Shown one piece after another: positions 6,929 through 22,405 of a stretch of DNA of 46,631 bases. Position numbers and translations under genes: made by a program. The stretch is from contig JAFSJE010000009.1 in the NCBI GenBank assembly GCA_017439425.1, forward strand, positions 1 to 46,631, read 5' to 3'. How positions within the stretch are numbered: the first letter of the stretch is position 1; every line of letters starts with the position of its first letter. This DNA comes from Oscillospiraceae bacterium (GTDB lineage Bacteria; Bacillota; Clostridia; Oscillospirales; Oscillospiraceae). The notes beneath the pieces were generated by a model. That model ran no database searches and had not been told where the DNA came from. It saw nothing but the letters and a program-made list of their open reading frames with translations.

Positions 6929-8124
6929 GAATGCTGCTGATTTACATAATCCTGCAATCAAAGCGCCTGCTGAGTCTTTTGCCGAGGCTTCTTATCGGGA
7001 CGGTTGCGGTAGTTATCGCAGGCGCGCTTGCTGCCGGACTTGTATCCGGCGTGCGTGCGGGCGATGAATCGCGCGTCAAGACCCGCATAGGCGTGGTTTA
7101 TGACGAGGGCGACAGCTATGCGCGGGCGGGCGTCGGCGCGCTCAGGCACTTTGACAGCTCAAGAAACGAGGCTGAGTTCATTGCCATGGACGAGGCTCAG
7201 GCAAAAGCAGGACTGATCGACGGGTCACTGACCGCTTATCTCTATATCCCCGGCGACTTTTTCACAACAATGTATTCGGATGACATTAATCCGATGCGTT
7301 TTGTTACGCTCTCGGGCAGCGCCGGACTCGATACGCGTTTGCTCACGGAGATGGCGGAGAGTATTGTGCGCCTTATGGCTGAAACGCAGGCGGCGGAGTA
7401 TGGCGCCGTGGAATATGCAAGGGAGAACTTTCCCGATTCCAACCCATACGAGGGCTACGACGACCTCATTGACCGCTATTTTGCGGCGGTGCTCGACAGG
7501 GACAAGCTCTATTCCGTCGAAATCATCGGCTACAACGGCAATCTCAGCTTTGCCGGACACTTTTTCGCGGGCATAACCTTTATGCTCAGCGCTTTTTGGG
7601 GAATCGGGCTGAGCCCCTTTTTTTCCCGCCGGAGCAGAGAGCTTGGAAATATGCTCTCAGTGCGCGCACTTCCCGCGCCGCTGCAGGTCGCCGGCGAGGC
7701 GACGGTCATATTCGCGGCGCATTTTATAAACGCGGTTCTTGTTCTCGCCCTCGGCAAAGCGCTGCTTGATTTAGCCGGCGTCACAATACCGGATAAGCTT
7801 AATAATTTCGCAGCTGTCGCCGCTCTTACTGCGCTGTGCCTCAGCTCGACGGAGATGCTAATATTTGAATTAGTTCCGCTGCCTCCTGCAAGCCTGATGG
7901 CCCATTTTATAAACACAGCGGCGCAGTGCTTTACGGCGGGGTGCGTTTACCCGCGCTCGTTCTTTCCTGAGCCGCTTCGCACTATCGGCGCGCTGATGCC
8001 ATTCGGCGCCGCGATTGATTGCTATGGCGGAGGCAGCGCTCTTGCGGTGACGATTTGGGCGATACTGCTTCTTTGCCTGACGGGCGGCATCCGTCTTGCG
8101 CGTCAGAGGGGAGGGGTATCGTGA
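6919..8124 (+). CDS. ABC-2 type permease, YhgE-like, first copy
   Basis: A 401-residue membrane protein with the layout of ABC-2 membrane type-3 permeases: one N-terminal helix (about 24-45), a long outer domain (about 46-205, opening with TRIGVVYDEGD), then a group of about five helices to the C-terminus. It overlaps the ATPase gene by ten bases and the second permease by four (GTGA). It most likely forms a heterodimer with the next protein. The class includes drug, antibiotic and peptide exporters; no substrate can be read from the sequence. Confidence 0.8.
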   Translation: MVMRMLLIYIILQSKRLLSLLPRLLIGTVAVVIAGALAAGLVSGVRAGDESRVKTRIGVVYDEGDSYARAGVGALRHFDSSRNEAEFIAMDEAQAKAGLIDGSLTAYLYIPGDFFTTMYSDDINPMRFVTLSGSAGLDTRLLTEMAESIVRLMAETQAAEYGAVEYARENFPDSNPYEGYDDLIDRYFAAVLDRDKLYSVEIIGYNGNLSFAGHFFAGITFMLSAFWGIGLSPFFSRRSRELGNMLSVRALPAPLQVAGEATVIFAAHFINAVLVLALGKALLDLAGVTIPDKLNNFAAVAALTALCLSSTEMLIFELVPLPPASLMAHFINTAAQCFTAGCVYPRSFFPEPLRTIGALMPFGAAIDCYGGGSALAVTIWAILLLCLTGGIRLARQRGGVS

Positions 8125-9176
8125 AAAAGCTGCTTGTATGGTACGCGCTTTTCACAAAGCGCCTCTTTCGGCGTCCTGTGTTTCCGATACTGCTTCTGTG
8201 CATACCGCTTCTTATAGGCACACTTGCGCTGGCGGCGCAGAATGAGGGCGGAATAAGGGTCGCCGTCGTGCAGGAGAAGGAATTTGATGCGGTCAAAAGG
8301 CTTCTCGATTCTGAGAGCCTGATAAAGTATGAGCTGTATCCTTCGGAGGAGAGTGCGCGCGAAGCAGTCGCTTCCGCGAAGGCAGACACGGCGTGGATAT
8401 TTCGCGCGGGAGCGGAAGCGGAGATACAGAAGCTTGCAACGGGAAAGCACACAAGCGGCGCGGTAACTGTCATAGAGCGCGAGGATACGGTCTTTCTGCA
8501 TATGGCGCGAGAGCAGCTTGCCGCGGCGTTATATCCGGACGTTTCCTTCGCACTTTTCAGCGACCACATAGAAAAACAGTGGGGCGCCGATAAATCGACT
8601 GTCCGCGGTTACTACGCACTTACCGCCTACAAGCCGATAATCGCCTTCGAGAGTCTCGACGGGCAAAAGCCGGAAACAAGCCTGCTCCTTATGCCGGTGC
8701 GCGGTATGCTGACGCTGCTGCTTGCGCTGACGGCTCTTGCCTCGGCAATCTATTGGTATGCTGACGCGGAGAGGGGTGCATTTTCCCGAATCAGCGGCGT
8801 TCAAGGGCAGCTCTTGCCGATTTTCAGCCACTTCTGCACGCTTTTGCCTGCCGCTGTCGTATCAGTTGCTGCACTCGCGTTTACCGGAGGCTTCAGGGGC
8901 TGGCTTACGGAATCGGCGCAACTGATGGCGCTGTGTCTGGCACTGTCTGCATTTTCTGAGCTTATGCGAAAAATCTGCCGCTCGCCGGAGCTCTTGGGGG
9001 CGCTTACTCCGGCGGTGCTCGTCGCACTTCTTGCCCTATCGCCGGTATTTACGGAGCCTCAGGCGCCGAAATGGGTGCTGTACCTCGTTCCGAGCTTTCT
9101 GTATTTGCGAAATGCGGCGCTTCTTGTGCCGTATGCGATTGTTCTGGCGGCAGTTGCGTCAGTAATAAAAGAATAA
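8121..9176 (+). CDS. ABC-2 type permease, second copy
   Basis: A 351-residue partner of the preceding permease with the same plan: an N-terminal helix (about 16-37), an outer domain starting GGIRVAVVQEKEFD, and several C-terminal helices. The GTG at 8121 is chosen because it overlaps the previous stop as GTGA and has a strong GAGGGGAGGGG ribosome site. The upstream in-frame extension would read through the previous gene in another frame. Being shorter and clearly diverged, the pair is probably heterodimeric. This is the last gene of the operon, eight bases before a strong terminator. Confidence 0.8.
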   Translation: MKKLLVWYALFTKRLFRRPVFPILLLCIPLLIGTLALAAQNEGGIRVAVVQEKEFDAVKRLLDSESLIKYELYPSEESAREAVASAKADTAWIFRAGAEAEIQKLATGKHTSGAVTVIEREDTVFLHMAREQLAAALYPDVSFALFSDHIEKQWGADKSTVRGYYALTAYKPIIAFESLDGQKPETSLLLMPVRGMLTLLLALTALASAIYWYADAERGAFSRISGVQGQLLPIFSHFCTLLPAAVVSVAALAFTGGFRGWLTESAQLMALCLALSAFSELMRKICRSPELLGALTPAVLVALLALSPVFTEPQAPKWVLYLVPSFLYLRNAALLVPYAIVLAAVASVIKE

Positions 9177-9183
9177 AAAAACA

Positions 9184-9219
9184 AAAAACCGCTGTTTTCA
9201 CAAGAAAACAGCGGTTTTT
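9184..9219 (+). terminator. Strong intrinsic terminator of the export operon
   Basis: A perfect 16-bp stem (9184-9199 with 9204-9219) encloses the 4-base loop ACAA. It begins with five A and ends with five T, so it can work in both directions. Confidence 0.93.
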
Positions 9220-9220
9220 A

Positions 9221-9255
9221 TGGTCCGAGTGACTGGGATTCGAACCAGCGTCCTC
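9221..9255 (-). pseudogene. Decayed tRNA 3' half
   Basis: Read on the minus strand this ends in GGACCA after an acceptor-like strand. Before that is a T-arm with GGTTCGAATCC. The T-stem has an extra C (GCTGG facing CCCAGT) and no D-arm, anticodon arm or 5' acceptor strand can be found upstream. It is a tRNA fragment, as often left at the edge of an integrated element. It starts directly after the operon terminator and marks the left edge of the foreign patch. Confidence 0.5.
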
Positions 9256-9460
9256 TTGAACCCCATCGGCCCATTCAAAACATTTTAAGGCCAAAATTGG
9301 TCAAAAACACAGTAAACAATGTAAAAGTGATAACTTTTAAGACGTTAATTTGCGTTCAATACATTGTTTTTCGAGCTCATTCCAGTCAAAATTCCAGTCG
9401 GATTGGAAAATTCTTACAAAGTATACAAGAGGCCAAATTGAAGGCATTGGGAGGTAAATA

Positions 9461-9721
9461 ATGGACGCTGCGAAAATCAAGTATCATCAAACGGGAGACT
9501 ATCTTTTGCCGAATCTTAAGGCACCGGATAATCCTAATATAGGCATATGGGGAATGCGCAGAAAGGAGCACCTGCTAAAATTTAAAGATCCAGTCTATAC
9601 AGGTCTCTTTCTCAGCGGAAAGCTCAATTCGCACCTCGTTGAAACCGACACAGCGGCAAGCGTCTTCCCGAAAGAGCGTCAAAAAGCGTTTGAAATGGGC
9701 GCAGCGCTTGCGGTGCGATAG
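9461..9721 (+). pseudogene. Truncated TnpV-type transposon protein
   Basis: The 86-residue frame matches the intact TnpV at 10913-11260 over its first ~68 residues (GDYLLPNL, IGIWGMRRKEHLLK, VYTGLFLSGKLNSHLVETD). It then changes to unrelated sequence and stops about 30 residues early, losing the conserved LEWVQHMNQIRA tail. The ribosome site (GGGAGG) and start are intact. Divergence from the other copy in this window shows it is not a recent duplicate. TnpV is an accessory protein of clostridial Tn4451-like elements; its function is poorly known. Confidence 0.7.
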
Positions 9722-9841
9722 GGGTCAAATCATCAGATACACAAATTCCGGCATTTTCTTGAAATCCTGCCGCAGATCTGTCCACCTGAAGTAAAAATCA
9801 ACTGATTTTTTCAAAAAGTAGAAAAGTTCATATTTTGGGAG

Positions 9842-9987
9842 TATAATGTAATAAAATGAATATCGGTCATCGGAGGACAGTACGCCGTAGCGTAGGGGAT
9901 CGTAAAGCATTAGCTTTGCAGGCCGCCTGTTAGATAAGATGTCGAGTGAGCTCGGAACATTTGGCTTTTGCCTTTTGTTGCCGAGCT
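9842..9987 (+). promoter_or_regulatory. Possible leader of the acetyltransferase gene
   Basis: A TATAAT at 9842-9847 has only a poor -35 partner. An inverted repeat (AGCTCGG 9949-9955 with CCGAGCT 9981-9987) lies between it and the ribosome site at 9998. The stretch could be a leader with an attenuator-like hairpin. A minus-strand frame of 61 codons (9725-9910) has protein-like content but no ribosome site and may be another gene scrap. Confidence 0.25.
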
Positions 9988-10012
9988 ATTTTATTGAAGG
10001 AGGTCTTTTGAT

Positions 10013-10555
10013 ATGGCAAACATCACCCTTACCCCTCTTACAGCCGATGAGCGGGAGCAATTCATCCTCGACAATCAGTACGCTTTCAAGTATGGTGCTA
10101 TGGAGGAATTTGGAGAGCGGGACAATCATTTTGAGGAAGACGGAGAAATCATCTCACGAAAGACGATCGAAAACAGCATTGATCATGGCGTGGCATACTT
10201 TATCCGTGAAGATGGCAGAATCGTCGGTGGCCTTGTGCTGAAGATTGACGAAGGGACCCAACACAACGAATTGGAATTGCTGTTTGTTCATCCAAGAGCA
10301 CATAGCAAAGGCATCGGCTATGCCGCATGGCAGGAGGTTGAACGCTTATATCCGGATACCGTTGCTTGGGAGACCTGTACCCCGTATTTTGAAACAAGGA
10401 ACATCCACTTCTATGTCAACAAGTGCGGGTTCCATATTGTCGAGTTTTTCAACAGCCATCATCCCGATCCGCATGATCCGGAGACCGGCGAAGAGAACAA
10501 CTATGAAGGTGAAGATTTCGACGGCATGTTCCGCTTTGAGAAACAAATGAAATAA
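10013..10555 (+). CDS. GNAT family N-acetyltransferase
   Basis: A 180-residue single-domain acetyltransferase that transfers acetyl groups from acetyl-CoA to an amine. The acetyl-CoA binding strand-loop is LELLFVHPRAHSKGIGYAAW (89-108); the Q/R-x-x-G-x-G/A rule is met as H97-S-K-G100-I-G102, with His in place of the usual first residue. The C-terminal NIHFYVNKCGFHIVEF is the usual last GNAT strand pair. GAAGGAGG lies seven bases before the ATG. The acidic last 25 residues are outside the core. It sits alone between two TnpV genes, like a cargo gene of a small element. The substrate is unknown. Confidence 0.9.
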   Translation: MANITLTPLTADEREQFILDNQYAFKYGAMEEFGERDNHFEEDGEIISRKTIENSIDHGVAYFIREDGRIVGGLVLKIDEGTQHNELELLFVHPRAHSKGIGYAAWQEVERLYPDTVAWETCTPYFETRNIHFYVNKCGFHIVEFFNSHHPDPHDPETGEENNYEGEDFDGMFRFEKQMK

Positions 10556-10560
10556 CGAAA

Positions 10561-10594
10561 AACGCCTCCGAGCCGATTGTGGTTCAGAGGCGTT
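10561..10594 (+). terminator. Hairpin after the acetyltransferase gene
   Basis: AACGCCTC (10561-10568) pairs with GAGGCGTT (10587-10594) just after the stop codon. There is no clear U-tract, so termination is uncertain. Confidence 0.45.
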
Positions 10595-10609
10595 GCCGCT
10601 TCTATGAGT

Positions 10610-10654
10610 TTATGCTTTGATCTCGGTGCCGTCCTTGAAGGTCACCCGGACTGG
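10610..10654 (-). pseudogene. C-terminal tail of an unknown protein
   Basis: The minus strand encodes PVRVTFKDGTEIKA and a stop, a protein-like tail, immediately behind the acetyltransferase hairpin. No start or upstream domain is present. It overlaps the edge of the plus-strand fragment that follows, consistent with a deletion junction near 10655. The parent family was not identified. Confidence 0.3.
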
Positions 10655-10656
10655 CA

Positions 10657-10851
10657 GCGATATATTTCGAAGATTACTTCTTGGCAAAAGATATCTCGAA
10701 TTTCGTTGATTTATCAAAATTAAAAGAAGCTGCAGAGATAACACCTGTTTTGTGGAGCTCCACGCCAATAGTTAGTGCCTGCAATATATCGGAGCAATTC
10801 AGCCTTGCTAATTGGGAAGGAATACCTAATCTTCTTTCTGAAAAGTATTAA
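10657..10851 (+). pseudogene. C-terminal fragment of an unidentified protein
   Basis: An open plus-strand stretch of 64 codons ends at a TAA (10849-10851). Its translation looks protein-like (YFEDYFLAKDISNFVDL, then ITPVLWSSTPIV, then LANWEGIPNLLSEKY) but has no start codon or ribosome site. It appears to be the 3' end of a gene cut by a rearrangement. No family recognised. Confidence 0.3.
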
Positions 10852-10912
10852 TTCAAGCTATCTTTAAGAACTACTGAAACATAAAACCTTAATTGTGTTC
10901 TGGAAAACAAAA

Positions 10913-11260
10913 TTATAAGAAAATCAATTCTTTATTTACAATCTCTTCTACTTCGGCTCGTATTTGATTCATATGTTGCACCCACTCCAGATGATTCTTC
11001 ATTTTCAGTTCTTCGGTAATGCCCTCACGGGCGGCATACTCTTTTATCAGCCGGTCAAACATTTCGTTTGCCTGCCTGTCAACATCTTCGAGGTGAGCGT
11101 TAAGATTGCCGCTGAGAAATAAGCCGGTATAGAGCAGCTCTTTGCTCTTTAGCAGATATTTTCTTCTGCGATAGCCCCAGATACCAATTTCAGGACTCTT
11201 TGGCGCGATTAAATCCGGAATGAGATAATCGCCCTCGCAGTGGTAAGTTATTTCAGACAT
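10913..11260 (-). CDS. tnpV: TnpV-type transposon-encoded protein
   Basis: This complete 115-residue protein has the conserved TnpV blocks in order: MSEITYHCEGDYLIPDL, IGIWGYRRRKYLL, LLYTGLFLSGNLNAHL, and the C-terminal LEWVQHMNQIRAEVEEIV helix. GGAGG lies eight bases before the ATG. TnpV proteins are found in Tn4451/Tn4453-like and other mobilisable elements of Clostridia, often as lone survivors after the recombinase gene is lost; none is visible here. It points toward the other, broken TnpV at 9461. Confidence 0.85.
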   Translation of the reverse strand: MSEITYHCEGDYLIPDLIAPKSPEIGIWGYRRRKYLLKSKELLYTGLFLSGNLNAHLEDVDRQANEMFDRLIKEYAAREGITEELKMKNHLEWVQHMNQIRAEVEEIVNKELIFL

Positions 11261-11465
11261 TATTACACCTCCGATTTTGTGGGAATTCTCGTGGTGCAGA
11301 TCGATAATTTTAGCTTATTTTTTCCCTTACGTGGTTAATTTTGTGCAACATGACTTTGCATAGAATAGACTAAAAAGTTCTGAAAAACAAACATAACAGG
11401 CATAATTGGGGATAAATAGCACGGGATAATCAAAACCCTGCAAATTCGATCCATTCTGCCACTGA
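11261..11465. other. AT-rich intergenic stretch, nothing recognised
   Basis: About 200 bases upstream of the TnpV gene are AT-rich and without an open frame of note. No RNA gene, repeat or convincing promoter for the flanking genes was identified. Confidence 0.5.
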
Positions 11466-11642
11466 CACACAAAAAGTTCCGAAATCATCCGATTTTTATG
11501 CTTTAAATTTCCGCCTGGTGCGGTTAATTCCTATCGTTTTGAACCGCTCCGGCATCAAAAAAGACGGGGTGCAGCAGGATTTTGCGTAATTCCCGCTGCT
11601 GCGCTTTTCTGTTTTCTTTGTCTTATGCGCGGAAGGATTTGC
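11466..11642 (+). repeat. Dispersed intergenic repeat, copy A
   Basis: This shares a perfect 30-base block (11466-11495, starting CACACAAAAAGTTCCG) with 25005-25034. A second, imperfect block (about 11556-11642) shares the GCAGCAG...CCCGCTGCTGC hairpin, the run TTTTCTTTG and TTATGCGCGGAAG with 25060-25145. Copy A has a longer, diverged middle and its hairpins are decayed. It lies directly upstream of the first GH3 promoter, while copy B lies at the other end of that gene cluster in the same orientation. Confidence 0.75.
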
Positions 11643-11656
11643 AAAAACTGTCCGAC

Positions 11657-11726
11657 TATTAAAATAGGAATTCTATTTTTAGGTTATGTAATAACATTTG
11701 TAATAAATTCCCCCTTCAGCTACGAT
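11657..11726 (+). promoter_or_regulatory. LytTR-type operator and promoter of the first GH3 operon
   Basis: TTTTAGGTTATGTAATA (11677-11693) matches the elements upstream of 18932 and 17349. A weaker copy (10 of 17 bases) lies 20 bp earlier at 11657-11673. A TACGAT hexamer (11721-11726) follows after exactly 27 bases, the same distance as at the other two promoters. The gene starts 65 bases beyond the element. Activation by the LytTR regulator encoded at 16639-17349 is inferred. Confidence 0.65.
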
Positions 11727-11757
11727 TTAAGCAGATTAAAAGAAAGGGTGGGTCCGA

Positions 11758-14616
11758 ATGAAAAATAATCTCTGGAAAGCGCTTTCACTGGTTACGATTT
11801 TCTTTTTGGTGATTGCGCTGATAGGTCAGAACCTTGCCGGACAGTATGCCGCAAGAATTAATGACGAGCTCGGCATTGTCACGAGCCGAGTCGTCGGCGG
11901 CGACAGTACGGCGGTGTACTACACCTCAGACTATTCAAGTCTGCAAGAGATGTTCAATGCCAAAACTCAGCTTATGCGGGAAATAGCCAATGAAGGAACT
12001 GTGCTCCTCAAAAATGACGGTATCCTTCCGGTCTCCGGCGGAACTATCGGCGTTTTCGGCGAGGAGAACTTTGTCCTGACGACCTCCAACGGCGGCGCAC
12101 AGATGACTTCTGCGATGACGCAGAATGCGGCGAAGGTCTCCAAAGCGCTGGAGGATTGCGGCCTGACTGTCACAAGCGACAATCCGTCTGTGGCGCTGGC
12201 GATAATCGGCAGAGTTTACGGCGAGGGCAACGACGCTCCCGCAGGCTCTCTCGCACTCTCCGACAAAGACCGGGCTGTTATAGACAAGGCAAAACAGAGC
12301 GGCGGCAAGGTAATCGTTCTTCTTAGCGGCGACCACGTTATTGAGGCGGGGGAGCTTGCCGACGACCCCGATATTCACGCCGTCCTTAAGCTCGGAAACG
12401 CAGGCTTTTCCGGCGCATACGGACTTGCCGATGTTATATCAGGAAGAGTGAGCCCATCCGGTAAGCTTGTAGATACCTATGTCAGGAGCATTGACAGCAT
12501 TCCGGCAACTGTGAACTTCGGTAACTTCGCCTACGCAAACGGTGCAAAAATCAAGGCTTCACAGGCAAAAAACTATGTTGTCTACGCTGAGGGAATATAC
12601 ACGGACTACCGATATTTTGAGACGCGTTACGAGGACAGTGTTCTCGGTCAGGGAAATTCCGGCGCGTGGAGCTATGATGACGAAGTAGTCTGGCCGTTCG
12701 GCTTCGGAATGAGCTATACCTCGTTTGAAAAGAAGATAACCGGCGTGACCTTTGATGAGGTCAATCACACGGCTGCGGTGTCCGTCAAGGTCACGAACAC
12801 CGGCACGACTGCCGGCAAGGAGGTTGTAGAGGTCTATGCGCAATCGCCATATACCGATTACGATAAAGAGAACCTTGTGGAAAAGTCGGCGGTTCAGCTT
12901 ATGGGCTTTGAAAAGACGAAGCTCCTTGCACCGAACGAGTCTGAAACACTCACGGTCACAGTTCATCTTCAGTGGCTCGCGTCATTCGATTACATTAACG
13001 CAAAGACTTACATAATGGATGCAGGAGATTATTACTTCTCCGTCGGGAACGGCGCGCACGAGGCGATAAACAATATCCTTGCCGCAAAGGGCAAGGGCGG
13101 CGGCGACGCCTCTCTCACTTTCAAATGGACGCAGGATGCTCTTGACACGGAAACATACTCGAAAAGCCTTTACACCGGCACCGAGATTACTGCGAGCTTT
13201 TCTGAATCCGATATAAACACATGGATTCCCGGCGCGGTTACTTATATGACTCGCTCAGACTGGCAGGGATCGTATCCGAAGAGCATTGAGCTGACAGCGT
13301 CGGACGAGATGCTCAGCATTCTGAACGACACAAAGCGCTACGAAACCGGAAACGGAAACGATACCAAGGTGAGGGCAAAGTCGGACAGCGTAAAATATGT
13401 GGATCTATCCACTTCAAATGAGGTCAGCGACGCACTCTCAACGATCGGCGCAGAGAACGTCGTTTCACTTCGCGGCCTCAGCTACGATGATCCGGCATGG
13501 GACGCCATGCTCGACAGACTTACCATCTATGAGATGAGCCACCTTGTTGCTAACGGCAACTACTCAATAAAATCCGCTCCGTCGCTTACATTCCCCGAGA
13601 GCAGCTCCAACGATGGCCCGATAGGTATAAGAGGAGCCTATATCTACACGAGAATCGACCCCGCAACAGGGGAAAAGACTGCTGTTCAGGACGGCGATAC
13701 CCTTTCAGATCCGCTCACCGGCAACACGCTCATGCTTGACGGTACTATCCAGGGCGTTATGTACGCTTCTGAGCCGGTTCTCGGTGCAACCTTCAATAAA
13801 GAGCTTGCCGCACGTCAGGGCGAAATGTTCGGCGAGGACGCACTTTATACTAATCTCCCTTGCGCTTATGCTCCCGGCGCAAATATGCACCGAAGCCCGT
13901 ATAACGGAAGAGTCAACGAATATGTCGGTGCAGATCCTGTGCTCACCTCGCTCATACTCGAGCCCATTTGCCGCGAAGCTAAGGAAAAAGGGCTTGTTAC
14001 AACTGTAAAGCACTTCGTCGTCAACGATCAGGAGCAGAATAGAATCGGCGTCGGCACATGGACAAACGAGCAGGCGCTGCGTGAGGTATATATGCGCGCC
14101 TTTGAGGGTGCGATGACCTACGGCGGAGCTAACGGCATGATGACGTCCTACAACCGCCTCGGCATGATTTCCACCGCTGCGGATTACGACCTTGTAAACG
14201 GTGTTGTATTCACGGAGTGGGGCAGTACCGCCTTCGTGATCACCGACCTCGGATCGCCTACGGCAGGTCTTTATGACGGCAACGCGACAATCGCTGCCGG
14301 CGTTTCCACAATGATGAACAATGGCGTCTATGACGATCCTTCTAAGGCTTACGTCAATCAGACGCTGTCTGTGGAGAGTATAAAAAGCGACCCTGTGCTT
14401 CTCTATGCCTCGCGCGAGGCTTGCCACCACATACTTTACAACTTCATTCATTCAAGCGCCGTCAACGGTATAGCCGAGGATGCCCGCATTGAGCTGCTGA
14501 CACCGTGGTGGCAGACGGCTCTGACTGTCGCTAAAATCGGCTTTGGCATTCTCGCCGTTGGTTCAACGATACTCTATCTCATCTCTGCCAATAAAAAAAG
14601 GAGGACTGAACAATGA
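11758..14616 (+). CDS. Membrane-anchored, circularly permuted GH3 glycosidase
   Basis: The 952-residue enzyme should hydrolyse beta-linked glycosides outside the cell. Domain order is reversed relative to standard GH3: N-terminal membrane helix (about 8-27), the alpha/beta sandwich domain (about 75-330, opening MREIANEGTVLLKNDG), an Fn3-like domain (about 335-435), then the TIM-barrel domain (about 550-900). The barrel keeps DGPIGIRG, the VKHFVVNDQE block and the nucleophile motif VITDLGS, with Asp830 as likely nucleophile. A C-terminal helix with a KKRR tail anchors the other end. Both termini should be cytoplasmic and the body outside. Permuted GH3 enzymes are known from ruminal clostridia. 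The next gene overlaps by four bases. Substrate unknown. Confidence 0.88.
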   Translation: MKNNLWKALSLVTIFFLVIALIGQNLAGQYAARINDELGIVTSRVVGGDSTAVYYTSDYSSLQEMFNAKTQLMREIANEGTVLLKNDGILPVSGGTIGVFGEENFVLTTSNGGAQMTSAMTQNAAKVSKALEDCGLTVTSDNPSVALAIIGRVYGEGNDAPAGSLALSDKDRAVIDKAKQSGGKVIVLLSGDHVIEAGELADDPDIHAVLKLGNAGFSGAYGLADVISGRVSPSGKLVDTYVRSIDSIPATVNFGNFAYANGAKIKASQAKNYVVYAEGIYTDYRYFETRYEDSVLGQGNSGAWSYDDEVVWPFGFGMSYTSFEKKITGVTFDEVNHTAAVSVKVTNTGTTAGKEVVEVYAQSPYTDYDKENLVEKSAVQLMGFEKTKLLAPNESETLTVTVHLQWLASFDYINAKTYIMDAGDYYFSVGNGAHEAINNILAAKGKGGGDASLTFKWTQDALDTETYSKSLYTGTEITASFSESDINTWIPGAVTYMTRSDWQGSYPKSIELTASDEMLSILNDTKRYETGNGNDTKVRAKSDSVKYVDLSTSNEVSDALSTIGAENVVSLRGLSYDDPAWDAMLDRLTIYEMSHLVANGNYSIKSAPSLTFPESSSNDGPIGIRGAYIYTRIDPATGEKTAVQDGDTLSDPLTGNTLMLDGTIQGVMYASEPVLGATFNKELAARQGEMFGEDALYTNLPCAYAPGANMHRSPYNGRVNEYVGADPVLTSLILEPICREAKEKGLVTTVKHFVVNDQEQNRIGVGTWTNEQALREVYMRAFEGAMTYGGANGMMTSYNRLGMISTAADYDLVNGVVFTEWGSTAFVITDLGSPTAGLYDGNATIAAGVSTMMNNGVYDDPSKAYVNQTLSVESIKSDPVLLYASREACHHILYNFIHSSAVNGIAEDARIELLTPWWQTALTVAKIGFGILAVGSTILYLISANKKRRTEQ

Positions 14617-16373
14617 AACAGTTTCTGGAAAAAAAGGAAAAAGGCTTTTTCTGCTCTGCGGCAGCGATAGTGCTGTTTTCTGTCGGACTTGTATTTTACC
14701 GTATGCTGACCGCTGTGTCTTTTGAAACCACCGAGCGACCCGTTACTGTAATTCTGTTTTCCTTTGCGGCAATTCTTATGAGCCTCATCGCATCCTATAA
14801 GGATTTCGGAAAGGTGCCGTCAATTGCCGCCTATGCGCTCAGTGTTATTGCGTTCTTTACGCTCCTTGAGGGCAGAACGAGCTATCTTGCCTTCTACTTC
14901 TCGGGCGACGTTATGAATACAGGGCTCTCTCCGTATATGGTGGCTTCCTTTGTGTGCTACCTTCTCGGAATGCTTGCTTCGCTGTTCGCTGTCATATTTG
15001 AGGAGGATAAGGGCGAAAGACCTGCGTTCAAGAAGGACGATCTTAAGGTGATCATACCGATGATCTGCGTTATCGGCGTGCTTGCGCTTTTTGTCGGACT
15101 TAATGCAAATGCAAACAGAGCTGAGCCGGGAGCGGCCTCTGCGCCGGTTCATACCGGCGTCACCGACAAGGGCTCAGCCGAGCCGGAGAAGGCGGCGAAC
15201 TACAAGACCCCGTCTGAGCCGGAGGATAAGTGGCAGGGCTACACCGGCGAGCAGTACTACAATGAGGACAATGACTCCAAGACTATTGCCTATCAGCTTG
15301 TCGGTCACGGTGAGGTCGACGCAGGTCAGCCGGCTGTCTTCGATGCGCTTCTGAACCTCTATGATGACGGCGAGATGGTAATGAGTGTGTTCGGAAGGGG
15401 CAACGCCTATCAGTATTTCGGATATTGGACGAACGTCAATGACGAAAACCTCTGGTTCTGCGTTATGGATTATATGGTCGTCGGAATGGACGAGATATGC
15501 ACCATCGACTATGGCTATGATCTGACCGGACATTTTGATACCTTCACCGTAAACGTTGCTCTCGGGCTTGCAGACGGCGGCGTATTTGTCCGCAACATCC
15601 CGGCGGGCGGCGACGGAAGTGTTCAGTACCCCTCTATAAAGGAATGGTTTGCGTCTTTCGGCTATGATATGCCTGAAAAGAAGGCTATCGGCGAAGCTGA
15701 GGCCGAGGCGGAGATCCTCTTCTCGTTTACGAGCGATTCCGAGAACTATCTCCTTGACATTTACAATGACGGCACATACACCTTCACGTTTAAGACTGCC
15801 GGCCTTGTTGAAACAGGCACATGGGATTATCACAACTGGAGAATGAATCTTACAGACGCCAATGGAAACGTTATGAACGCCGACAAGGAAAACCCGGAGC
15901 ACGAAATGCGCCTGCACTACGTCTCGCCCACCGATGAGCGCGTAAACCGCGACTTCACAGCGCCTTCGAGCGCATGGGGCGTAGCGTTCAAGGGTCAGGG
16001 CGATTATGAGCCGCCGGTGAAGCCCAAGACCGAGGCGAAGGCGGAGGAGACTCCTGCCGAAAAGACCGTTCTTTTCTCCTTCACAAGCGACTCTGAAAAC
16101 TACCTTCTCGATATCAACACGGATAACACTTATACCTTTACCTTCAAAACAGCAGGACTTGTGGAGGAAGGTACATGGGAGTACAAGGATTGGAAGATGA
16201 CTCTTACCGACGCAAACGGCAGGGTCACTGAGGTCGATAAGGAAAACCCGGAGCATGAGATGCGCCTTCACTACGTTTCGCCCACCGATGAGCGTGTAAA
16301 CCGGGATTTCACCGCGCCTTCGAGCGTATGGGGCGTAGCCTTCAAGGGACAGGGCGAATATCCTGCCGCATAA
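14613..16373 (+). CDS. 5-TM membrane protein with duplicated C-terminal domains
   Basis: A 586-residue partner of the GH3 enzyme, translationally coupled by ATGA with AGGAGG inside the GH3 end. Five membrane helices (about 11-31, 44-62, 69-87, 109-131, 146-166) put the rest outside. A linker and one outer domain (about 215-355) are followed by two nearly identical ~95-residue domains (about 370-467 and 487-584), each LFSFTSDSENYLLDI, Y-T-F-T-F-K-T-A-G-L, GTW, then a shared NPEHEMRLHYVSP block. The repeated beta-strand pattern suggests lipocalin-like barrels. The 5-TM unit resembles the N-terminus of the second GH3 enzyme. Function unknown; sugar binding or enzyme positioning is possible. Confidence 0.7.
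   Translation: MKQFLEKKEKGFFCSAAAIVLFSVGLVFYRMLTAVSFETTERPVTVILFSFAAILMSLIASYKDFGKVPSIAAYALSVIAFFTLLEGRTSYLAFYFSGDVMNTGLSPYMVASFVCYLLGMLASLFAVIFEEDKGERPAFKKDDLKVIIPMICVIGVLALFVGLNANANRAEPGAASAPVHTGVTDKGSAEPEKAANYKTPSEPEDKWQGYTGEQYYNEDNDSKTIAYQLVGHGEVDAGQPAVFDALLNLYDDGEMVMSVFGRGNAYQYFGYWTNVNDENLWFCVMDYMVVGMDEICTIDYGYDLTGHFDTFTVNVALGLADGGVFVRNIPAGGDGSVQYPSIKEWFASFGYDMPEKKAIGEAEAEAEILFSFTSDSENYLLDIYNDGTYTFTFKTAGLVETGTWDYHNWRMNLTDANGNVMNADKENPEHEMRLHYVSPTDERVNRDFTAPSSAWGVAFKGQGDYEPPVKPKTEAKAEETPAEKTVLFSFTSDSENYLLDINTDNTYTFTFKTAGLVEEGTWEYKDWKMTLTDANGRVTEVDKENPEHEMRLHYVSPTDERVNRDFTAPSSVWGVAFKGQGEYPAA
15718..16365 (+). repeat. Tandem in-frame duplication, about 95 codons
   Basis: Two copies, about 15718-16010 and 16069-16365, encode nearly the same domain separated by a Lys/Glu/Pro linker. 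The DNA copies differ at many third positions although the proteins match closely, so the duplication is not recent and the protein sequence is under selection. Confidence 0.85.
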
Positions 16374-16392
16374 AATCACATAAGATAATGCA

Positions 16393-16426
16393 GACGCCCC
16401 GCAGAGTTCATTCTCTGCGGGGCGTC
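16393..16426. terminator. Hairpin 1 of an inverted pair
   Basis: A perfect 14-bp stem GACGCCCCGCAGAG/CTCTGCGGGGCGTC has the loop TTCATT, 20 bases after the 5-TM gene's stop. It lacks a U-tract but is very stable. Hairpin 2 at 16589-16622 is its exact reverse complement, loop included. Confidence 0.7.
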
Positions 16427-16588
16427 AGACTGTAGACAAAAAGGAAAAAGCGTTGGATATAGGAGGCGGGGTTCTGTGAAGGGGCCGGCCGAGAGGCCCC
16501 TTCACGTCGCATCACCCGCCCGCAGGCGTCATATTTTGCGTTCAGAGAGTGCAAAATATGTTCGATGCGGAGACTTTGTCGACGCATT
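16427..16588. other. Hairpin-dense spacer, possible structured RNA or mini-element
   Basis: Between the two outer hairpins lie three more: GTGAAGGGGCC/GGCCCCTTCAC (16476-16486 with 16495-16505), enclosed by GGCGGG/CCCGCC (16465-16470 with 16515-16520); CATATTTTGC/GCAAAATATG (16530-16539 with 16551-16560); and ATGCG/CGCAT (16565-16569 with 16583-16587). No open frame is present. It sits between convergent genes. It may be a non-coding RNA or a short non-autonomous repeat element. Confidence 0.5.
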
Positions 16589-16622
16589 GACGCCCCGCAG
16601 AGAATGAACTCTGCGGGGCGTC
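16589..16622. terminator. Hairpin 2 of an inverted pair
   Basis: The same 14-bp stem as hairpin 1 with the complementary loop AATGAA, 17 bases beyond the stop of the response regulator gene on the minus strand. The two hairpins serve the two convergent transcripts. Confidence 0.7.
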
Positions 16623-16638
16623 AGTTTATGGACGATTA

Positions 16639-17349
16639 TCAATCAATATTATAATAATCCTTAACCGCCTGAGAGAAGGCTTTTTTCTTGGGCTGGCTTA
16701 TCTTGAGCTCCGTCCCGTCGTTCAGGAATACGGTGTAGCCCTTTATGCCCTTGACGTAGCTGAGGTTCACGAGAAAACAGCTGTTGCAGCGCACAAAGCC
16801 CTTTTCCTGAAGCTTCTCCTCCTGACTGACGAGCGTTCCGAAGCCGTAATACACCCCGTCGTGGGTGTGGTAGGTGAGCATATGGCCGCGCACCTCAACG
16901 TATTTTATGTCGCGGATGCGTATTCTTGCGGAGGCCGTGTCGGTGGTGACGCGGATCGATTCCTCGTCCTCGCCTCCGAGACGCCATATCGCCTTTGTGA
17001 GCTTCATGGCGAAGGAGTAATATTGCAGCGGCTTGAGGATATAGTCGAGCGCGCGCACCTCGTAGCCCGCGATGGCGTACTGCGCGAGGCTTGTTACGAA
17101 AATAAGTATCACCTTCTCGTCGAGCGCGCGGATGCGCTTTGCCGCCTCCATGCCATTCATATCCGGCATCTGGATGTCCATATAGATTATGTCATAGTCG
17201 GAGTGATACTTCTCAAGAAGCATAACGGGAGAATTGAAGCAGTCTATGCGGAAGGTTATGTCGTTTTCCTTTGAGTATCTCTCGAGAAAGCCCTTCAGCG
17301 TGTCGGTATGGAGCTGTTCGTCCTCGACTATTGCAACGTGTACTGTCAT
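16639..17349 (-). CDS. LytTR-family response regulator (AgrA-like)
   Basis: A 236-residue DNA-binding regulator. The receiver domain (about 3-125) has the acidic pair E9/D10, phospho-acceptor D58 in YMDIQMPDMNG and the conserved lysine in YILKPL. The LytTR domain (about 130-232) shows the typical IRIRDIKYVEV, RCNSCFLVNLSYVKGI and FLNDGTELKIS strands. AGGAGG precedes the ATG. It is the partner of the kinase encoded 92 bases upstream. Its promoter carries two copies of a 17-base repeat that also precede the second GH3 operon, with a good and a poor copy at the first, so it probably activates those genes and itself. No AgrD/AgrB peptide genes are nearby, so the signal is unknown. Confidence 0.93.
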   Translation of the reverse strand: MTVHVAIVEDEQLHTDTLKGFLERYSKENDITFRIDCFNSPVMLLEKYHSDYDIIYMDIQMPDMNGMEAAKRIRALDEKVILIFVTSLAQYAIAGYEVRALDYILKPLQYYSFAMKLTKAIWRLGGEDEESIRVTTDTASARIRIRDIKYVEVRGHMLTYHTHDGVYYGFGTLVSQEEKLQEKGFVRCNSCFLVNLSYVKGIKGYTVFLNDGTELKISQPKKKAFSQAVKDYYNID

Positions 17350-17377
17350 TGAATATCCTCCTGATGCCGTTTTTTAT

Positions 17378-17447
17378 ACTGTAACAAAAAACGGAAAACG
17401 GGGAAAACAATATTGCATAAACTAAAAAGTTATTGCCTAAACTAAAA
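17378..17447 (-). promoter_or_regulatory. LytTR-type operator and promoter of the regulator gene
   Basis: On the plus strand TATTGC-A/C-TAAACTAAAA occurs at 17411-17427 and 17431-17447 (16 of 17 identical, 20-bp period). Read toward the regulator gene this is TTTTAGTTTA-G/T-GCAATA. TACAGT (17383-17378) follows after exactly 27 bases, with TATAAA overlapping just beyond. The outer repeat overlaps the stop codon of the kinase gene. Autoregulation is inferred. Confidence 0.75.
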
Positions 17448-18755
17448 GCCTTCGGGCAGAGGAACAGAGATTTTAAGGCAGTATATCTCTCCCTCGGTGT
17501 TTATGCTGATCGAGCCGCCGTAGCTTTCGGCGATGTATTTCATGCTCATTGTGCCGAAGCCGTGATGGCTCCGGTCTTTTTTTGTGGTCTCTCCGGCGGT
17601 GACGAGCTTGCCGTCATAGAAATTCGTCACCTCAATGACGACATCGCCGCCCTGCCGCTCGACGGTTATGCTTATGACCCGTTTTTCCGGGTCTGAGAGC
17701 TTTTTTACCGCCTCGATGGCATTTCCGATGGCGTTGTTGAAGAGGGAATAGAGATGGCGCGTACGCATGAAGCCCAGCGCCCCGCCGTCGGCAAGGCAGG
17801 TTATCTCGATGCCGTACTCTTTTGCAGTAAGCTTGCTTGTGTGCAGAACGACGTCAAGCACCTCACAGCCGGTCTTGAGGTTGGAGTCATAGAAGTCCAT
17901 GCTCTCGCGCAGAGATTCTATCTCACTGTCGGTGAGCTTGCCGGAGAAATCGTCGAGCTGATGCCGCAGATCGTGGCAGCGCATATTGATTACGTCCATA
18001 TTCTCCTTCATTTTCTCATACTGCTTGCGCTCCTCGCGCAGTACCTGATCCATTATCTCCATATCTGAGCGGTAGCGGCTTTGAAATTCTATGGAGGTGC
18101 AGATTGCAAGAATAAATGCGGCGAGGGCGAGAAGGTATACCTTGTTTACGAGATACATTTCATAGCTGACAGCACGAAATTCTGCGGAAACACAGTCCGG
18201 AACGGTCAAAAAAAGAATACAGACGAGAGAAAGCAGGGTGGTCGATTTTCGGCTCGGACGATCCAGCTCTTCAGGTGTTTTAAGAGCGAGAAAGCGGTAT
18301 GTAAGCAGGTAAACCACAACTCGCACGAGAACGAAAAGGAGCCAGTTGAGCAAAAACATATTTTCACCGAAAACAGCTATGCTCGTTCTCTCGTCTGTGC
18401 CGAGAAGGAAAAGCAGCATTGAATAAATGGATACACCGATCTCCATTGCCGCTATTCCTGCGCACCAGAGGCGCAGCTTTACAAAAAGGCTGCCCTTATA
18501 GCACATAAGCGAGATAACAAGCGGCATTGCAAACTGCATAAGCCGCATTATAAACCGGGTCGGAAGCAGGTTTATGCGAATTCTTAACATTACGGCAAAA
18601 ATAAGTATGACCGCATCTATTATAAACGCCGCAAAAAGCCGCAGCGGATAGAGATCCTTTTTAGGGAGCGGGTGCAGGAAAACGAGCCCGGAAATGACGA
18701 GCTGACCGGCAACCGTAAGATTTATTATGAACTGATATAGTATTTCCTGCGGCAT
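17442..18755 (-). CDS. Membrane sensor histidine kinase, AgrC/GHKL type
   Basis: A 437-residue kinase with about six membrane helices in residues 8-225, a coiled linker (about 228-258), and a GHKL catalytic region. The H-box is CHDLRHQLDDF (H261 likely phosphorylated), the N-box is NNAIGNAIEAV (340-350) and the G-box is HHGFGTMSM (398-405). This is the AgrC family layout, without an obvious extracellular ligand domain, so the ligand is probably sensed through the membrane part, often a peptide. The pair with the downstream LytTR regulator controls, by inference, the flanking glycosidase operons. It has its own promoter and the ribosome site is GAGGG. Confidence 0.92.
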   Translation of the reverse strand: MPQEILYQFIINLTVAGQLVISGLVFLHPLPKKDLYPLRLFAAFIIDAVILIFAVMLRIRINLLPTRFIMRLMQFAMPLVISLMCYKGSLFVKLRLWCAGIAAMEIGVSIYSMLLFLLGTDERTSIAVFGENMFLLNWLLFVLVRVVVYLLTYRFLALKTPEELDRPSRKSTTLLSLVCILFLTVPDCVSAEFRAVSYEMYLVNKVYLLALAAFILAICTSIEFQSRYRSDMEIMDQVLREERKQYEKMKENMDVINMRCHDLRHQLDDFSGKLTDSEIESLRESMDFYDSNLKTGCEVLDVVLHTSKLTAKEYGIEITCLADGGALGFMRTRHLYSLFNNAIGNAIEAVKKLSDPEKRVISITVERQGGDVVIEVTNFYDGKLVTAGETTKKDRSHHGFGTMSMKYIAESYGGSISINTEGEIYCLKISVPLPEGF

Positions 18756-18776
18756 TATTTCACCCTCTTTTAACCG

Positions 18777-18805
18777 ATTATACCATTTTTATCGGCGCTT
18801 TTCAA
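18777..18805 (-). promoter_or_regulatory. Sigma-A promoter of the kinase gene
   Basis: On the minus strand TTGAAA (18805-18800) and TATAAT (18782-18777) are 17 bases apart, with TGG before TATAAT. It lies 22 bases before the kinase ATG and carries no LytTR-type repeats, so the kinase is probably expressed constitutively. Confidence 0.7.
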
Positions 18806-18825
18806 TCGCTGTCAAGCGCATAGGA

Positions 18826-18895
18826 TTTTAGTTTAGGCAATAGTTTTTTAGCTTGTGTAATAGCTGTTGAGGTTTTTTGCGGCGTATTTTATCCT
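18826..18895 (+). promoter_or_regulatory. LytTR-type operator and promoter of the second GH3 operon
   Basis: TTTTAGTTTAGGCAATAG (18826-18843) and TTTTAGCTTGTGTAATAG (18846-18863) form a direct repeat with 20-bp period. The first is identical over 17 bases to the outer repeat at the regulator gene, in the same orientation relative to the gene. TATCCT (18890-18895) follows the core element after 27 bases. The start codon is at 18932. Confidence 0.78.
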
Positions 18896-18931: not shown

Positions 18932-21900
18932 GTGAAAGAGAAAAAGTCAGTTCTTAGCCTTGTCGGCATAGCGCTCAGCGTTCTGACCGCAGTCATCTAC
19001 GCCGTGCTGTACGGCAACGCCGTAAGCAGTATGAACAATATGTCCTGGCCTGCATTCTGGGTGCTCCTTGCCGGAAGCGCAGTCGCGGCGGCGTTCCTGC
19101 TTATTAAAAAGCCACGCTTCGGCGCATACGTGCTCGCGGCGGCAGACCTTGCGGCGTTCATGCTCGCAATCTACGCCTTCTACCCCTACATCTCCGCCGC
19201 ATTCGTCGGAATCGACTCCACATGGGAGGCGCCTTTCTTTATCGTTATGGCACTGTTCCTTGCCTCGGTCATCGTGAACGCCATCGTAGCGCTCTCGTCG
19301 GTGCCGGCTAAGGCGACGCTCTCCAAGGCGCTCTGCGCTGTTATGGCTTCGCTCTTTGCGGTTACGAGCGTCGGCGGCGTTATCGCAAACGAGAATGCCC
19401 CGCAGATAAACGGCGCGCTCAAGACCGCCTCCTCCGTTGAGGTACACGAGGGCGACCCCAACGAGGACACTCAGTATTATAAATCCGCCTACAAAAATCT
19501 CGCCTCTCTTATGGCGACGGGCAGAGATAAGGCTGAGGAGGCGATGGCTGAGGGCATCGTTCTTCTCCGCAACGAAAACGGCGCTCTGCCTCTTGCCGAG
19601 GGCGAGAGAAAGGTCAGCCTCTTCGGAATGAGCTCCGTCGACCCCGTCTACGGCGGCACCGGAAGCGGCAACGTCGACACCTCCTCCGCGCCGAGCTGGA
19701 AAACCGCTCTCGAGCGCGACGGCGCCTTCAGCGTAAACGGCACACTCTGGGATTGGTACTCCGCCTCCGAGCAGGAGGTATATAAGCGCACGATGGGTCA
19801 GACCGGCCCGGGCGTAACCGGCGCGAAGAGCATCGGCGAGGCGCCCTGGAGCACCATCAAGAGCGCTAACGGCTCCACCTTCTCGCAGTTCGGCGACGCC
19901 GCCATCGTTTTCATCTCCCGCGTCGGCGGCGAGGGCAGCGATATGCCCCGCGGCACTCTTGCGCTCAGCCAGCTCGATGACGCTGACGGCTCTCTCGGCG
20001 ACACCGTCGGCGGCGATTACCTCAAGCTCAGCCCCAAAGAGCAGGATATGCTGAGGGGCCTCAAGGCTGAAAAGGACGCCGGAAGCATCAAGAAGATAAT
20101 CGTTGTACTCAACTTTGCAAATCAGGTCGAGGCGGACTTCATCGACTCCGCCGAATACGGCATCGACGCCGCACTCTGGGTCGGTACTCCCGGTCAGGTC
20201 GGTATGTACGCCGTTGCAGACGTCCTTTCCGGCGCCGTAAACCCCTCCGGTCGACTCTCCGCCACCTTCTGGCGCGACCACTCCAAGAACCCGGCACTCG
20301 CAAACTTCGGCGCGACTGCTTACGCCGGTGCGCCCGACGCAGTCAACTCCGACGGCTCGCCCCAGCAGGACAGATACTACGTCGTCTATCAGGAGGGCAT
20401 CTACGTCGGCTACCGCTACACCGAGAGCCGCTATGAGGACTACGTTATGGGTACCGGAAATGCCGGCGACTATATCTGGTCGGAGGCAGTCAGCTTCCCG
20501 TTCGGCTTCGGCCTCAGCTACACCGAGTTTGAATACTCCGGCTTCTCCGCAGAAAAGGACGGCGAGGACTATATCGTTACAGTAACAGTTACGAATAACG
20601 GCACCGCCGCCGGCAAGGAGACGGTTCAGATCTACCTCCAGAAGCCCTACGGAGATTACAACAAGGCTAACGGCGTCGAGGCCGCCTCCGCTGAGCTCGT
20701 CGGCTTCGACAAGACCGGAGTTCTTGAACCCGGCGAGAGCGAAACGCTCACAATCAGGGTCTACGGCAGACAGCTTGCCGCTTACGATTCAAATAACGCA
20801 AAAACCTATGTCATCGTGGACGGCGACTATTACCTAACCGCCGCGAAGGACGCACACAGCGCCGTAAACAACATCCTCGCAAAGAAGGGCTACACGCCCG
20901 ACTCCACCGAGGGCAGAATGGACGCAGAGGGGGATTCCGAGCTTGTTTCCGACGCGATCACCCTCGCATTCGACAAGGACACCTACTCCAAGTCCTACGC
21001 CACCGGCTATGAGATCACAAACGAGTTTGATTACGCCGACTGGAACAAGTACGAAAACCGCGGTAGCGACACTGTTACATATATGAGCCGCTCCGACTGG
21101 TCTGCCACCACCCCGAAATCCTGGGCGGACACCACCATCCTCCACTGGAGCGACAATATCCAGAAGGACGAGGATAAATACGGCCGCCAGAGCGAGACAA
21201 AGCTCCCGACCGTCACCGACGAGTACCCGAAGTACGATACCTTTGCAAACGGCGAGACGATCTCGCTCATCCAGCTGCGCGCTGACGAGAACGGCAACGA
21301 GAGACCCTACGACGATCCAATGTGGGATACCCTTCTCGACCAGCTCAGCTGGGAGGATTACACAAACGTCATACCCTCCGGTATGCGCCGCAACGGGCAG
21401 GTTGAGGTCATCAGCAAGATGGAGTGCCTTGACCACAACGGCCCGAGCGGCCTTACCCAGCCGTACAGCGCAAATGCCCGCGGTCTCGCTACCTCCACCG
21501 GCGACCCGGACAAGAACGCCAAAGCCATGTGCTATCCGGCGGGCGGAATTCTTGCCGCGACCTTCAACATTGACCTTATGTACGACGTCGGCGATCTTAT
21601 CGGCGAGGACGCCCTCTGGGCGGGCTACAACGGCCTCTACGGCCCCGGCTCCAATATTCAGCGTACACCCTACTCCGGCAGAAACTTTGAGTACTATTCC
21701 GAGGACGGCTACCTCTCCGGCATGGTCTGCGCCTATGAGTGCGCCGCCATGGAGAGCCACGGGCTCTACGTCTACAACAAGCACGTCGGCCTCAACGATC
21801 AGGAGGATCTCCGCCGCGGAATCTGCACATGGGCGCCTGAGCAGGCGATCCGCGAGGTCTATATGAGAGCCTTTGAGCTTCCGATAACCATCGCGGGCAC

Positions 21901-22405
21901 GCAGTATGAGCGAAACGGCGAAACTCTCACTCTCAAGGGAGCCTCCGGTGTTATGCTCGCCTTCAACCGCCTCGGCCTTCACTGGAGCGGAATGCAGAAG
22001 GGCATGGTCACCGAATTCCTCAGAAACGAGTGCGGCATGACCGGTATCGTGGTTACCGATATGTGGTACGGCACCGCCTCGCCCTATATGAACCTCCCCG
22101 CACTGCTGGTCGCCGGAGGCAACCTCGTCGACGGAATGATGAAGGCTGAGGATCTCGACGCCTGCCGCCCGGGCAGCGGTCACGCCGACGTCGCCTGGGG
22201 TATGCGCGAGGCTATGCATCGCATTCTCTACACCGTTGTTCACTCCAACGCAATGAACGGCGTATCCGCAAACACCAAGATCATCGCAGTTACCCCGTGG
22301 TGGCAGACCGCCATCACCGCCGCACAGATCTCCACCGGAGTTCTGACCCTCGCAGCGATTGCGCTTCTTATCATCAAGTCCAGAAAAAACGCCAAAAAGG
22401 CGTAA
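18932..22405 (+). CDS. Polytopic, circularly permuted GH3 glycosidase
   Basis: An 1157-residue surface enzyme starting at GTG with AGGAGG seven bases before. Five N-terminal membrane helices (about 6-26, 39-58, 63-85, 101-122, 127-150) resemble the 5-TM unit of the protein at 14613. The sandwich domain follows (about 200-520, EEAMAEGIVLLRNENG), then an Fn3-like part (about 535-650), then the barrel (about 800-1110) with DHNGPSG, NKHVGLNDQE and GIVVTDMW, where Asp1043 is the likely nucleophile. A C-terminal helix with basic tail closes the protein. KHV replaces the more usual KHF. Codons are strongly biased to C/G endings, suggesting high expression. Compared with the 952-residue paralogue it has longer loops and an extra membrane unit. 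Substrate unknown. Confidence 0.88.
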   Translation: MKEKKSVLSLVGIALSVLTAVIYAVLYGNAVSSMNNMSWPAFWVLLAGSAVAAAFLLIKKPRFGAYVLAAADLAAFMLAIYAFYPYISAAFVGIDSTWEAPFFIVMALFLASVIVNAIVALSSVPAKATLSKALCAVMASLFAVTSVGGVIANENAPQINGALKTASSVEVHEGDPNEDTQYYKSAYKNLASLMATGRDKAEEAMAEGIVLLRNENGALPLAEGERKVSLFGMSSVDPVYGGTGSGNVDTSSAPSWKTALERDGAFSVNGTLWDWYSASEQEVYKRTMGQTGPGVTGAKSIGEAPWSTIKSANGSTFSQFGDAAIVFISRVGGEGSDMPRGTLALSQLDDADGSLGDTVGGDYLKLSPKEQDMLRGLKAEKDAGSIKKIIVVLNFANQVEADFIDSAEYGIDAALWVGTPGQVGMYAVADVLSGAVNPSGRLSATFWRDHSKNPALANFGATAYAGAPDAVNSDGSPQQDRYYVVYQEGIYVGYRYTESRYEDYVMGTGNAGDYIWSEAVSFPFGFGLSYTEFEYSGFSAEKDGEDYIVTVTVTNNGTAAGKETVQIYLQKPYGDYNKANGVEAASAELVGFDKTGVLEPGESETLTIRVYGRQLAAYDSNNAKTYVIVDGDYYLTAAKDAHSAVNNILAKKGYTPDSTEGRMDAEGDSELVSDAITLAFDKDTYSKSYATGYEITNEFDYADWNKYENRGSDTVTYMSRSDWSATTPKSWADTTILHWSDNIQKDEDKYGRQSETKLPTVTDEYPKYDTFANGETISLIQLRADENGNERPYDDPMWDTLLDQLSWEDYTNVIPSGMRRNGQVEVISKMECLDHNGPSGLTQPYSANARGLATSTGDPDKNAKAMCYPAGGILAATFNIDLMYDVGDLIGEDALWAGYNGLYGPGSNIQRTPYSGRNFEYYSEDGYLSGMVCAYECAAMESHGLYVYNKHVGLNDQEDLRRGICTWAPEQAIREVYMRAFELPITIAGTQYERNGETLTLKGASGVMLAFNRLGLHWSGMQKGMVTEFLRNECGMTGIVVTDMWYGTASPYMNLPALLVAGGNLVDGMMKAEDLDACRPGSGHADVAWGMREAMHRILYTVVHSNAMNGVSANTKIIAVTPWWQTAITAAQISTGVLTLAAIALLIIKSRKNAKKA

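Follow-up and report, generated by a model that had tools for sequence, protein, structure and literature searches.

A set of 17-base direct repeats at three promoters in a glycoside hydrolase family 3 (GH3) gene cluster is best explained as the sites at which a LytTR response regulator (gene at 16639-17349) binds; this protein would activate its own gene and both GH3 operons, and we give this reading a probability of about 0.85. The window, that is, the whole stretch of 46,631 nucleotides analysed here (contig JAFSJE010000009.1, assembly GCA_017439425.1), comes from an Oscillospiraceae bacterium related to gut and rumen species. Judged from sequence, the repeats are a real set of LytTR direct-repeat sites. 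We favour this reading because the regulator carries LytTR and receiver domains, the pairs are spaced by exactly 20 bp and their layout is a published one (PMC6193735); because mismatch-free pairs occur in this genome only at the regulator, at the second GH3 operon and at a paralogous module, and 8 of 11 near-exact pairs in 34 congeneric genomes stand at such modules; and because pairs are kept in three relatives (L073, L090 and L091), the promoter hexamers recur at fixed places (TAnnnT in 10/12 promoters, TTG in 8/12), and repeats spaced by 20-21 bp are enriched upstream of related modules.

The gene cluster and its repeats

The forward strand encodes GH3A (11758..14616, 952 aa), P586 downstream of it (14613..16373) and GH3B (18932..22405, 1157 aa). 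Both GH3 proteins have the inverted domain order (PF01915, PF14310, PF00933), and P586 has no Pfam match, its relatives adjoining GH3A in loci L088 and L090 (by tblastx for L090). On the minus strand lie the regulator (16639..17349, 236 aa, PF00072 and PF04397) and a GHKL histidine kinase (17442..18755, 437 aa, PF14501). The first-pass annotation had called the repeats LytTR-type, a reading borne out by the Response_reg and LytTR domains of the adjacent regulator, whose PF04397 match scores 63.9 bits (cut-off 22.6), and by the fit of the repeats to the published LytTR promoter layout (PMC6193735). No close template for the regulator's DNA-binding domain turned up in sequence searches of the PDB.

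A pattern search of the window with the 17-mer TTTTAGNTTRNGYAATA found five exact matches. They fall where the same annotation had placed a common 17-base element, before the first GH3 operon (11677..11693, +), the regulator gene (17411..17427, -) and the second GH3 operon (18846..18862, +), and at the distal copies of the latter two promoters (17431..17447, - and 18826..18842, +). Full pairs with a spacing of exactly 20 bp are thus present at the regulator promoter (17447-17411, minus strand) and the GH3B promoter (18826-18862). The distal copy at GH3A (11657..11673, +) is degenerate: it matches the consensus at 10/17 positions, the value claimed beforehand, and its own proximal copy at 9/17, and it aligns with the distal copy of the GH3B promoter of L090. 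At up to three mismatches the window holds seven matches against 2.1 expected, a number reached by none of 100 shuffles. The kinase stop codon TAG is itself part of the distal repeat of the regulator promoter, a feature absent from the earlier annotation.

Promoter geometry and comparison with known systems

All three promoters carry a TAnnnT hexamer 27 bases past the end of the proximal element, as claimed beforehand; these putative -10 elements are TACGAT at GH3A (11721..11726, +), TACAGT at the regulator (17378..17383, -) and TATCCT at GH3B (18890..18895, +). A TAnnnT offset common to the three promoters arose in 0.14% of 5000 shuffles. Start codons follow the element by 61, 64 and 69 bases, in agreement with the earlier range of 62-70, which counts from the last base. 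New to this analysis are putative -35 hexamers beginning with TTG, exactly 10 bp past the proximal 9-mer at GH3A (TTGTAA, 11698..11703, +) and GH3B (TTGAGG, 18867..18872, +), giving a layout of 9-mer, 11 bp, 9-mer, 10 bp, -35, 17 bp and -10. At the regulator genes of the window, L073, L090 and C36, the matching place in the promoter has no TTG -35. The kinase gene, described before as having an ordinary promoter without the repeat, does have a canonical one (TTGAAA-17-TATAAT, 18777..18805, -), matching the consensus at 11/12 positions.

In the promoters of the LytTR Regulatory Systems listed in Table 3 of PMC6193735, two 9-bp direct repeats are separated by 11-13 bp and generally precede the -35 by 10 bp. 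The window layout equals this one: the 9-mers are 11 bp apart at the regulator and GH3B, with a degenerate pair at GH3A, and lie exactly 10 bp upstream of the -35 at GH3A and GH3B, the regulator promoter having no TTG -35. Autoregulation is another shared trait, proposed in the case of the window. In contrast, the regulator of those systems is paired with a membrane inhibitor, as described there (PMC6193735), whereas that of the window has a receiver domain and an adjacent GHKL kinase in place of such an inhibitor, and the window core TTAGTTTAG differs from their ACCACTTAC-like core (PMC6193735). AgrA of Staphylococcus aureus, likewise a LytTR response regulator, binds a pair of direct repeats ahead of its promoters (PMC4227749), as is predicted for the window; according to the same source it differs in belonging to an Agr locus with a peptide signal and in its -35/-10 spacers of 18 and 20 (PMC4227749), against 17 at GH3A and GH3B.

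An association between LytTR regulators and GH3 genes was already noted in 2010 in Butyrivibrio proteoclasticus, where each of three LytTR regulators lies near a secreted GH3 with a C-terminal transmembrane helix (PMC2914790); the relevant passages contain no binding sites, promoter geometry or series of paralogues. In the literature searched, mostly open papers by title and abstract, we found no description of binding sites for GH3-linked LytTR regulators. The repeats offer concrete candidate regulator sites for a type of GH3 cluster found repeatedly in Firmicutes and also in some Actinobacteria.

Rarity of the repeats in the genome and genus

The first-pass annotation had named many equally good, unrelated matches elsewhere as the outcome that would speak against its reading. 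In the genome scan (2.30 Mb, 89 contigs) the five exact 17-mers all lie at this cluster, and mismatch-free pairs elsewhere are confined to the GH3 operon of the C59 module. Nine more 17-mers appear at two mismatches, and for none of the nine could a second copy be recognised at a distance of 20 bp. Matches to the reversed pattern at up to two mismatches number 18, so single weak copies are not enriched.

Searching with the paired core pattern, we found three mismatch-free matches in the genome, at the regulator promoter, at the GH3B promoter and at C59:32289, the promoter of the GH3 operon in a paralogous module. Two-mismatch matches are those at GH3A, at C59:30876, upstream of the regulator of the C59 module, and at one place in C60. 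With up to three mismatches allowed, the pattern finds 13 pairs and its reverse 31, which makes the number of weak pairs uninformative; five of the six matches outside modules lie inside an ORF. Across 34 congeneric genomes, 11 pairs were found at up to one mismatch (two for the reversed control), eight of them at LytTR-GHKL-GH3 modules: three in the genome of the window (G000), two in G002, one in G003 and two in G004. One G003 pair and one G004 pair lie just after a GH3 gene and before the next operon, the G004 placement being deduced from near-identity with the G003 stretch. Of the three non-module matches, two overlap each other within tandem TTAGG repeats in G006 and one, in G021, is unexplained.

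Conservation in relatives and the module family

Closest to the module are L073 (regulator 74% identical, GH3B 80%), on the same contig as L089 in an Oscillospiraceae MAG from cattle rumen, L090 (73% and 79%), in a MAG from sheep ileum, and L091 (59% and 75%), from the uncultured Oscillospiraceae isolate Lapin-018. A comparison of the same intergenic regions had been proposed as a check, and it turned out favourably, since in relatives the regulator promoter and the GH3B promoter still have their pairs. Identity between copies is strong in L073 (15/17 and 14/17, respectively) and weaker in L090 (11/17 and 12/17); L091 has a pair at the GH3B promoter (10/17) and, before the regulator, no more than a weak pair.

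In a set of 12 promoters chosen from relatives and the paralogues C36 and C59, leaving aside the near-copies L075, L076 (with its second operon) and L077 and the L091 regulator promoter, TAnnnT occurs at offset 27 in 10, the next best offset scoring 3; none of 5000 shuffles reached 10 at any offset. The TTG at offset 4, exactly 10 bp past the proximal 9-mer, is found in 8/12, namely all seven GH3 promoters and the C59 regulator promoter. With near-copies included, TAnnnT is at 27 in 11/15, missing from the GH3 operon promoters of L060, L075 and L076 and from the second operon of L076.

The genome contains 15 LytTR domain matches, and 12 regulators match that of the window at E values up to 1e-30. 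Eleven of these 12 have a GH3 homologue in the fetched stretch (C67 has none), and the genome holds about a dozen LytTR-GHKL-GH3 modules. We rejected the idea of a clear pair at every related module of this genome: no pair at 9/11 or better was found in seven of its loci (L063, L065, L066, L067, L068, L069 and L072), and L070 has no qualifying gene. For L061, the two pairs from the repeat listing are distinct from its TTAG pairs, the latter having been found by pattern search.

A wider collection was scanned with eight related regulators as queries, and the best 80 of 512 confirmed stretches represent 79 loci, two of them contigs already in the set. Among these best 80, a GH3 gene lies in the stretch of 52/79 loci, 52 of the first 63 listed (L089-L151) against none of the last 16 (L152-L167); some loci lacking GH3 end at contig ends. 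The neighbourhood also occurs in Actinobacteria (L101, L122 and L127; Schaalia, Arcanobacterium and Bifidobacterium).

Direct repeats of at least 10/11 were then counted in 196 non-redundant upstream regions of modules (211 minus 15 near-identical), drawn from loci that have a GH3 and regions whose gap is at least 30, with L089 and L139 left aside because they repeat the contigs of L073 and L088. There are six at 20 bp and 15 at 21 bp, with 0-3 at each other spacing from 12 to 40. On these counts the two-turn repeat looks like a family trait, set at 20 bp in the branch of the window and mostly at 21 bp elsewhere. In 267 control regions, upstream of other genes, one repeat falls at 20 bp and seven at 21 bp, with 0-4 at other spacings; some of the 21-bp repeats may be further targets. 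In L094 and L099 the regulator is preceded by a run of three ACMGCRTAA-like copies instead of two, about 21 bp apart by eye. A tandem 21-bp repeat, GCTCCCGCTCAGGGCGGTGAA, at L081:4256-4325 before a 212-aa ORF is most likely coding and unrelated to the promoter repeats.

Proposed mechanism and alternative explanations

From the observed positions, geometry, rarity, conservation and promoter-like elements we infer a mechanism of read-through, phosphorylation, binding and activation. The GHKL kinase would be made from its ordinary promoter, with read-through supplying some basal regulator, and on a signal the kinase would phosphorylate the regulator. Two regulator molecules would then bind the two 9-bp cores (TTAGNTTRN), which repeat every 20 bp and so lie on about the same helix face, and would help the polymerase onto a promoter whose -35 is 10 bp further on. 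The regulator would in this way switch on both GH3 operons and, by positive feedback, itself; positive autoregulation is the most likely form of control.

The sign of control cannot be read from sequence alone, and the regulator might instead bind the pairs and repress, or block the polymerase, until signalled. We consider this improbable, as the pairs sit upstream of the -35 at a distance of 10 bp, like those of the LytTR-activated promoters tabulated in PMC6193735. Even less credit is due to the idea that the repeats arose by chance in AT-rich DNA or serve an unrelated protein. Single two-mismatch copies elsewhere are indeed no commoner than the reversed pattern, but exact copies occur in this genome at these promoters only, near-exact pairs across the genus stand mostly at module promoters, and the promoter offset is fixed (0/5000 shuffles); a chance origin was rejected on the window shuffles, the rarity of pairs in genome and genus, and this offset. 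Counted against binding by the LytTR regulator are the three-mismatch pairs, no commoner than their reverse, the one weak copy at GH3A, the weak L091 regulator pair, the four regulator promoters lacking a TTG -35 and the small excess of 21-bp repeats in controls.

A different question is whether the sites serve this regulator alone. The first-pass annotation had defined a local three-promoter regulon, which does not hold as worded: in the C59 module, a pair without mismatch stands at the GH3 operon and a two-mismatch pair at the regulator. As this module carries the same sites, the regulon is probably not closed, and at least one further module may belong to the site set or have a share in it. 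The repeats could even be LytTR sites common to several paralogous regulators (window, C59 and perhaps C36), in which case the three promoters would be part of a larger network with cross-talk and not of a private regulon, a possibility to which we give somewhat under even odds. It draws on the C59 pairs, which have the same geometry, and on the DNA-binding hairpins of the window and C59 regulators, both with RCNSC and ISQPKKK; the whole LytTR domains of the two are, however, just 41% identical, and every module has pairs of its own, as private regulation would also predict.

Those hairpin motifs recur, in the alignment, in the regulators of L073 and L090, and all four regulators go with TTAG sites at 20 bp. 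The C36 regulator has RCSNS and ISQPRKR, and its site reads TTAGYTCAC. At a spacing of 21 bp, four regulators with SHPRR or SYPR go with ACMGCRTAA-like sites, and several in which SR precedes basic residues go with ACAGTTCGT-like sites. As a lead only, sites and regulator hairpins thus seem to differ together by branch. The C59 sites match the window pattern better than those of C36, although its regulator is less similar to that of the window (48% identity against 59%), and the shared hairpin motifs fit this better match. We withhold a residue-to-base code because the site frames were set by eye, with a few shifted by one letter, and because the clades do not count as independent. A single genome with so many related regulators and differing sites would allow LytTR recognition rules to be derived by comparison.

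Origin of the GH3A promoter

The GH3A promoter looks like that of an operon that changed regulators. The closest relative of GH3A, in L090 (77%), adjoins a second regulator-kinase pair, and relatives in G012 and G346 (60-62%) adjoin another; the two GH3A-linked regulators share 37% identity, and their identities to the window regulator are 35 and 40%. In the window, GH3A has no such pair of its own. A tblastn search of positions 8000-11757, upstream of GH3A, found no relic of a second regulator or kinase better than E 0.12.

Using the GH3A upstream region without its last 18 bases, we obtained no alignment with the GH3A upstream region of L090 (score 17, shuffles 15.5, p 0.26) or L088 (p 0.75). 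The GH3B promoter of L090, in contrast, aligns over 48 ungapped bases, 36 of them identical, in a stretch that includes the two repeat copies as well as the -35 (score 36, shuffles 16.3, 0/500). That the weak GH3A promoter aligns with this promoter and not with the GH3A promoter of L090 suggests capture of the operon from another regulator. On the simplest reading, GH3A would have joined the neighbouring regulator by gaining a GH3B-like promoter, the distal copy having decayed since; this scenario rests on few lineages, too few to tell the older state, and the likeness of the two promoters could possibly reflect shared constraint rather than common descent.

As a tentative history, to which we lean a little against committing, the dozen modules would descend from one, their regulators and repeats having diverged together into partly separate lines, with GH3A-P586 captured by the neighbour's regulator through a GH3B-like promoter. 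If true, these descendants would form a natural series from which the LytTR recognition code could be read.

Two further observations concern the GH3A-P586 region. A cluster of GH3A, P586, kinase and regulator is 99% identical over 10.6 kb between L088 (G012) and L184 (G346), assigned to different genera; the match ends next to a contig end, and a recent transfer between genera and mis-binned contigs, either of which may be the cause, are indistinguishable. In the window, two perfect 34-base hairpins (16393-16426 and 16589-16622) lie between the convergent P586 and regulator genes; they share the same stem, have reverse-complementary loops and are perhaps paired terminators or a rearrangement scar.
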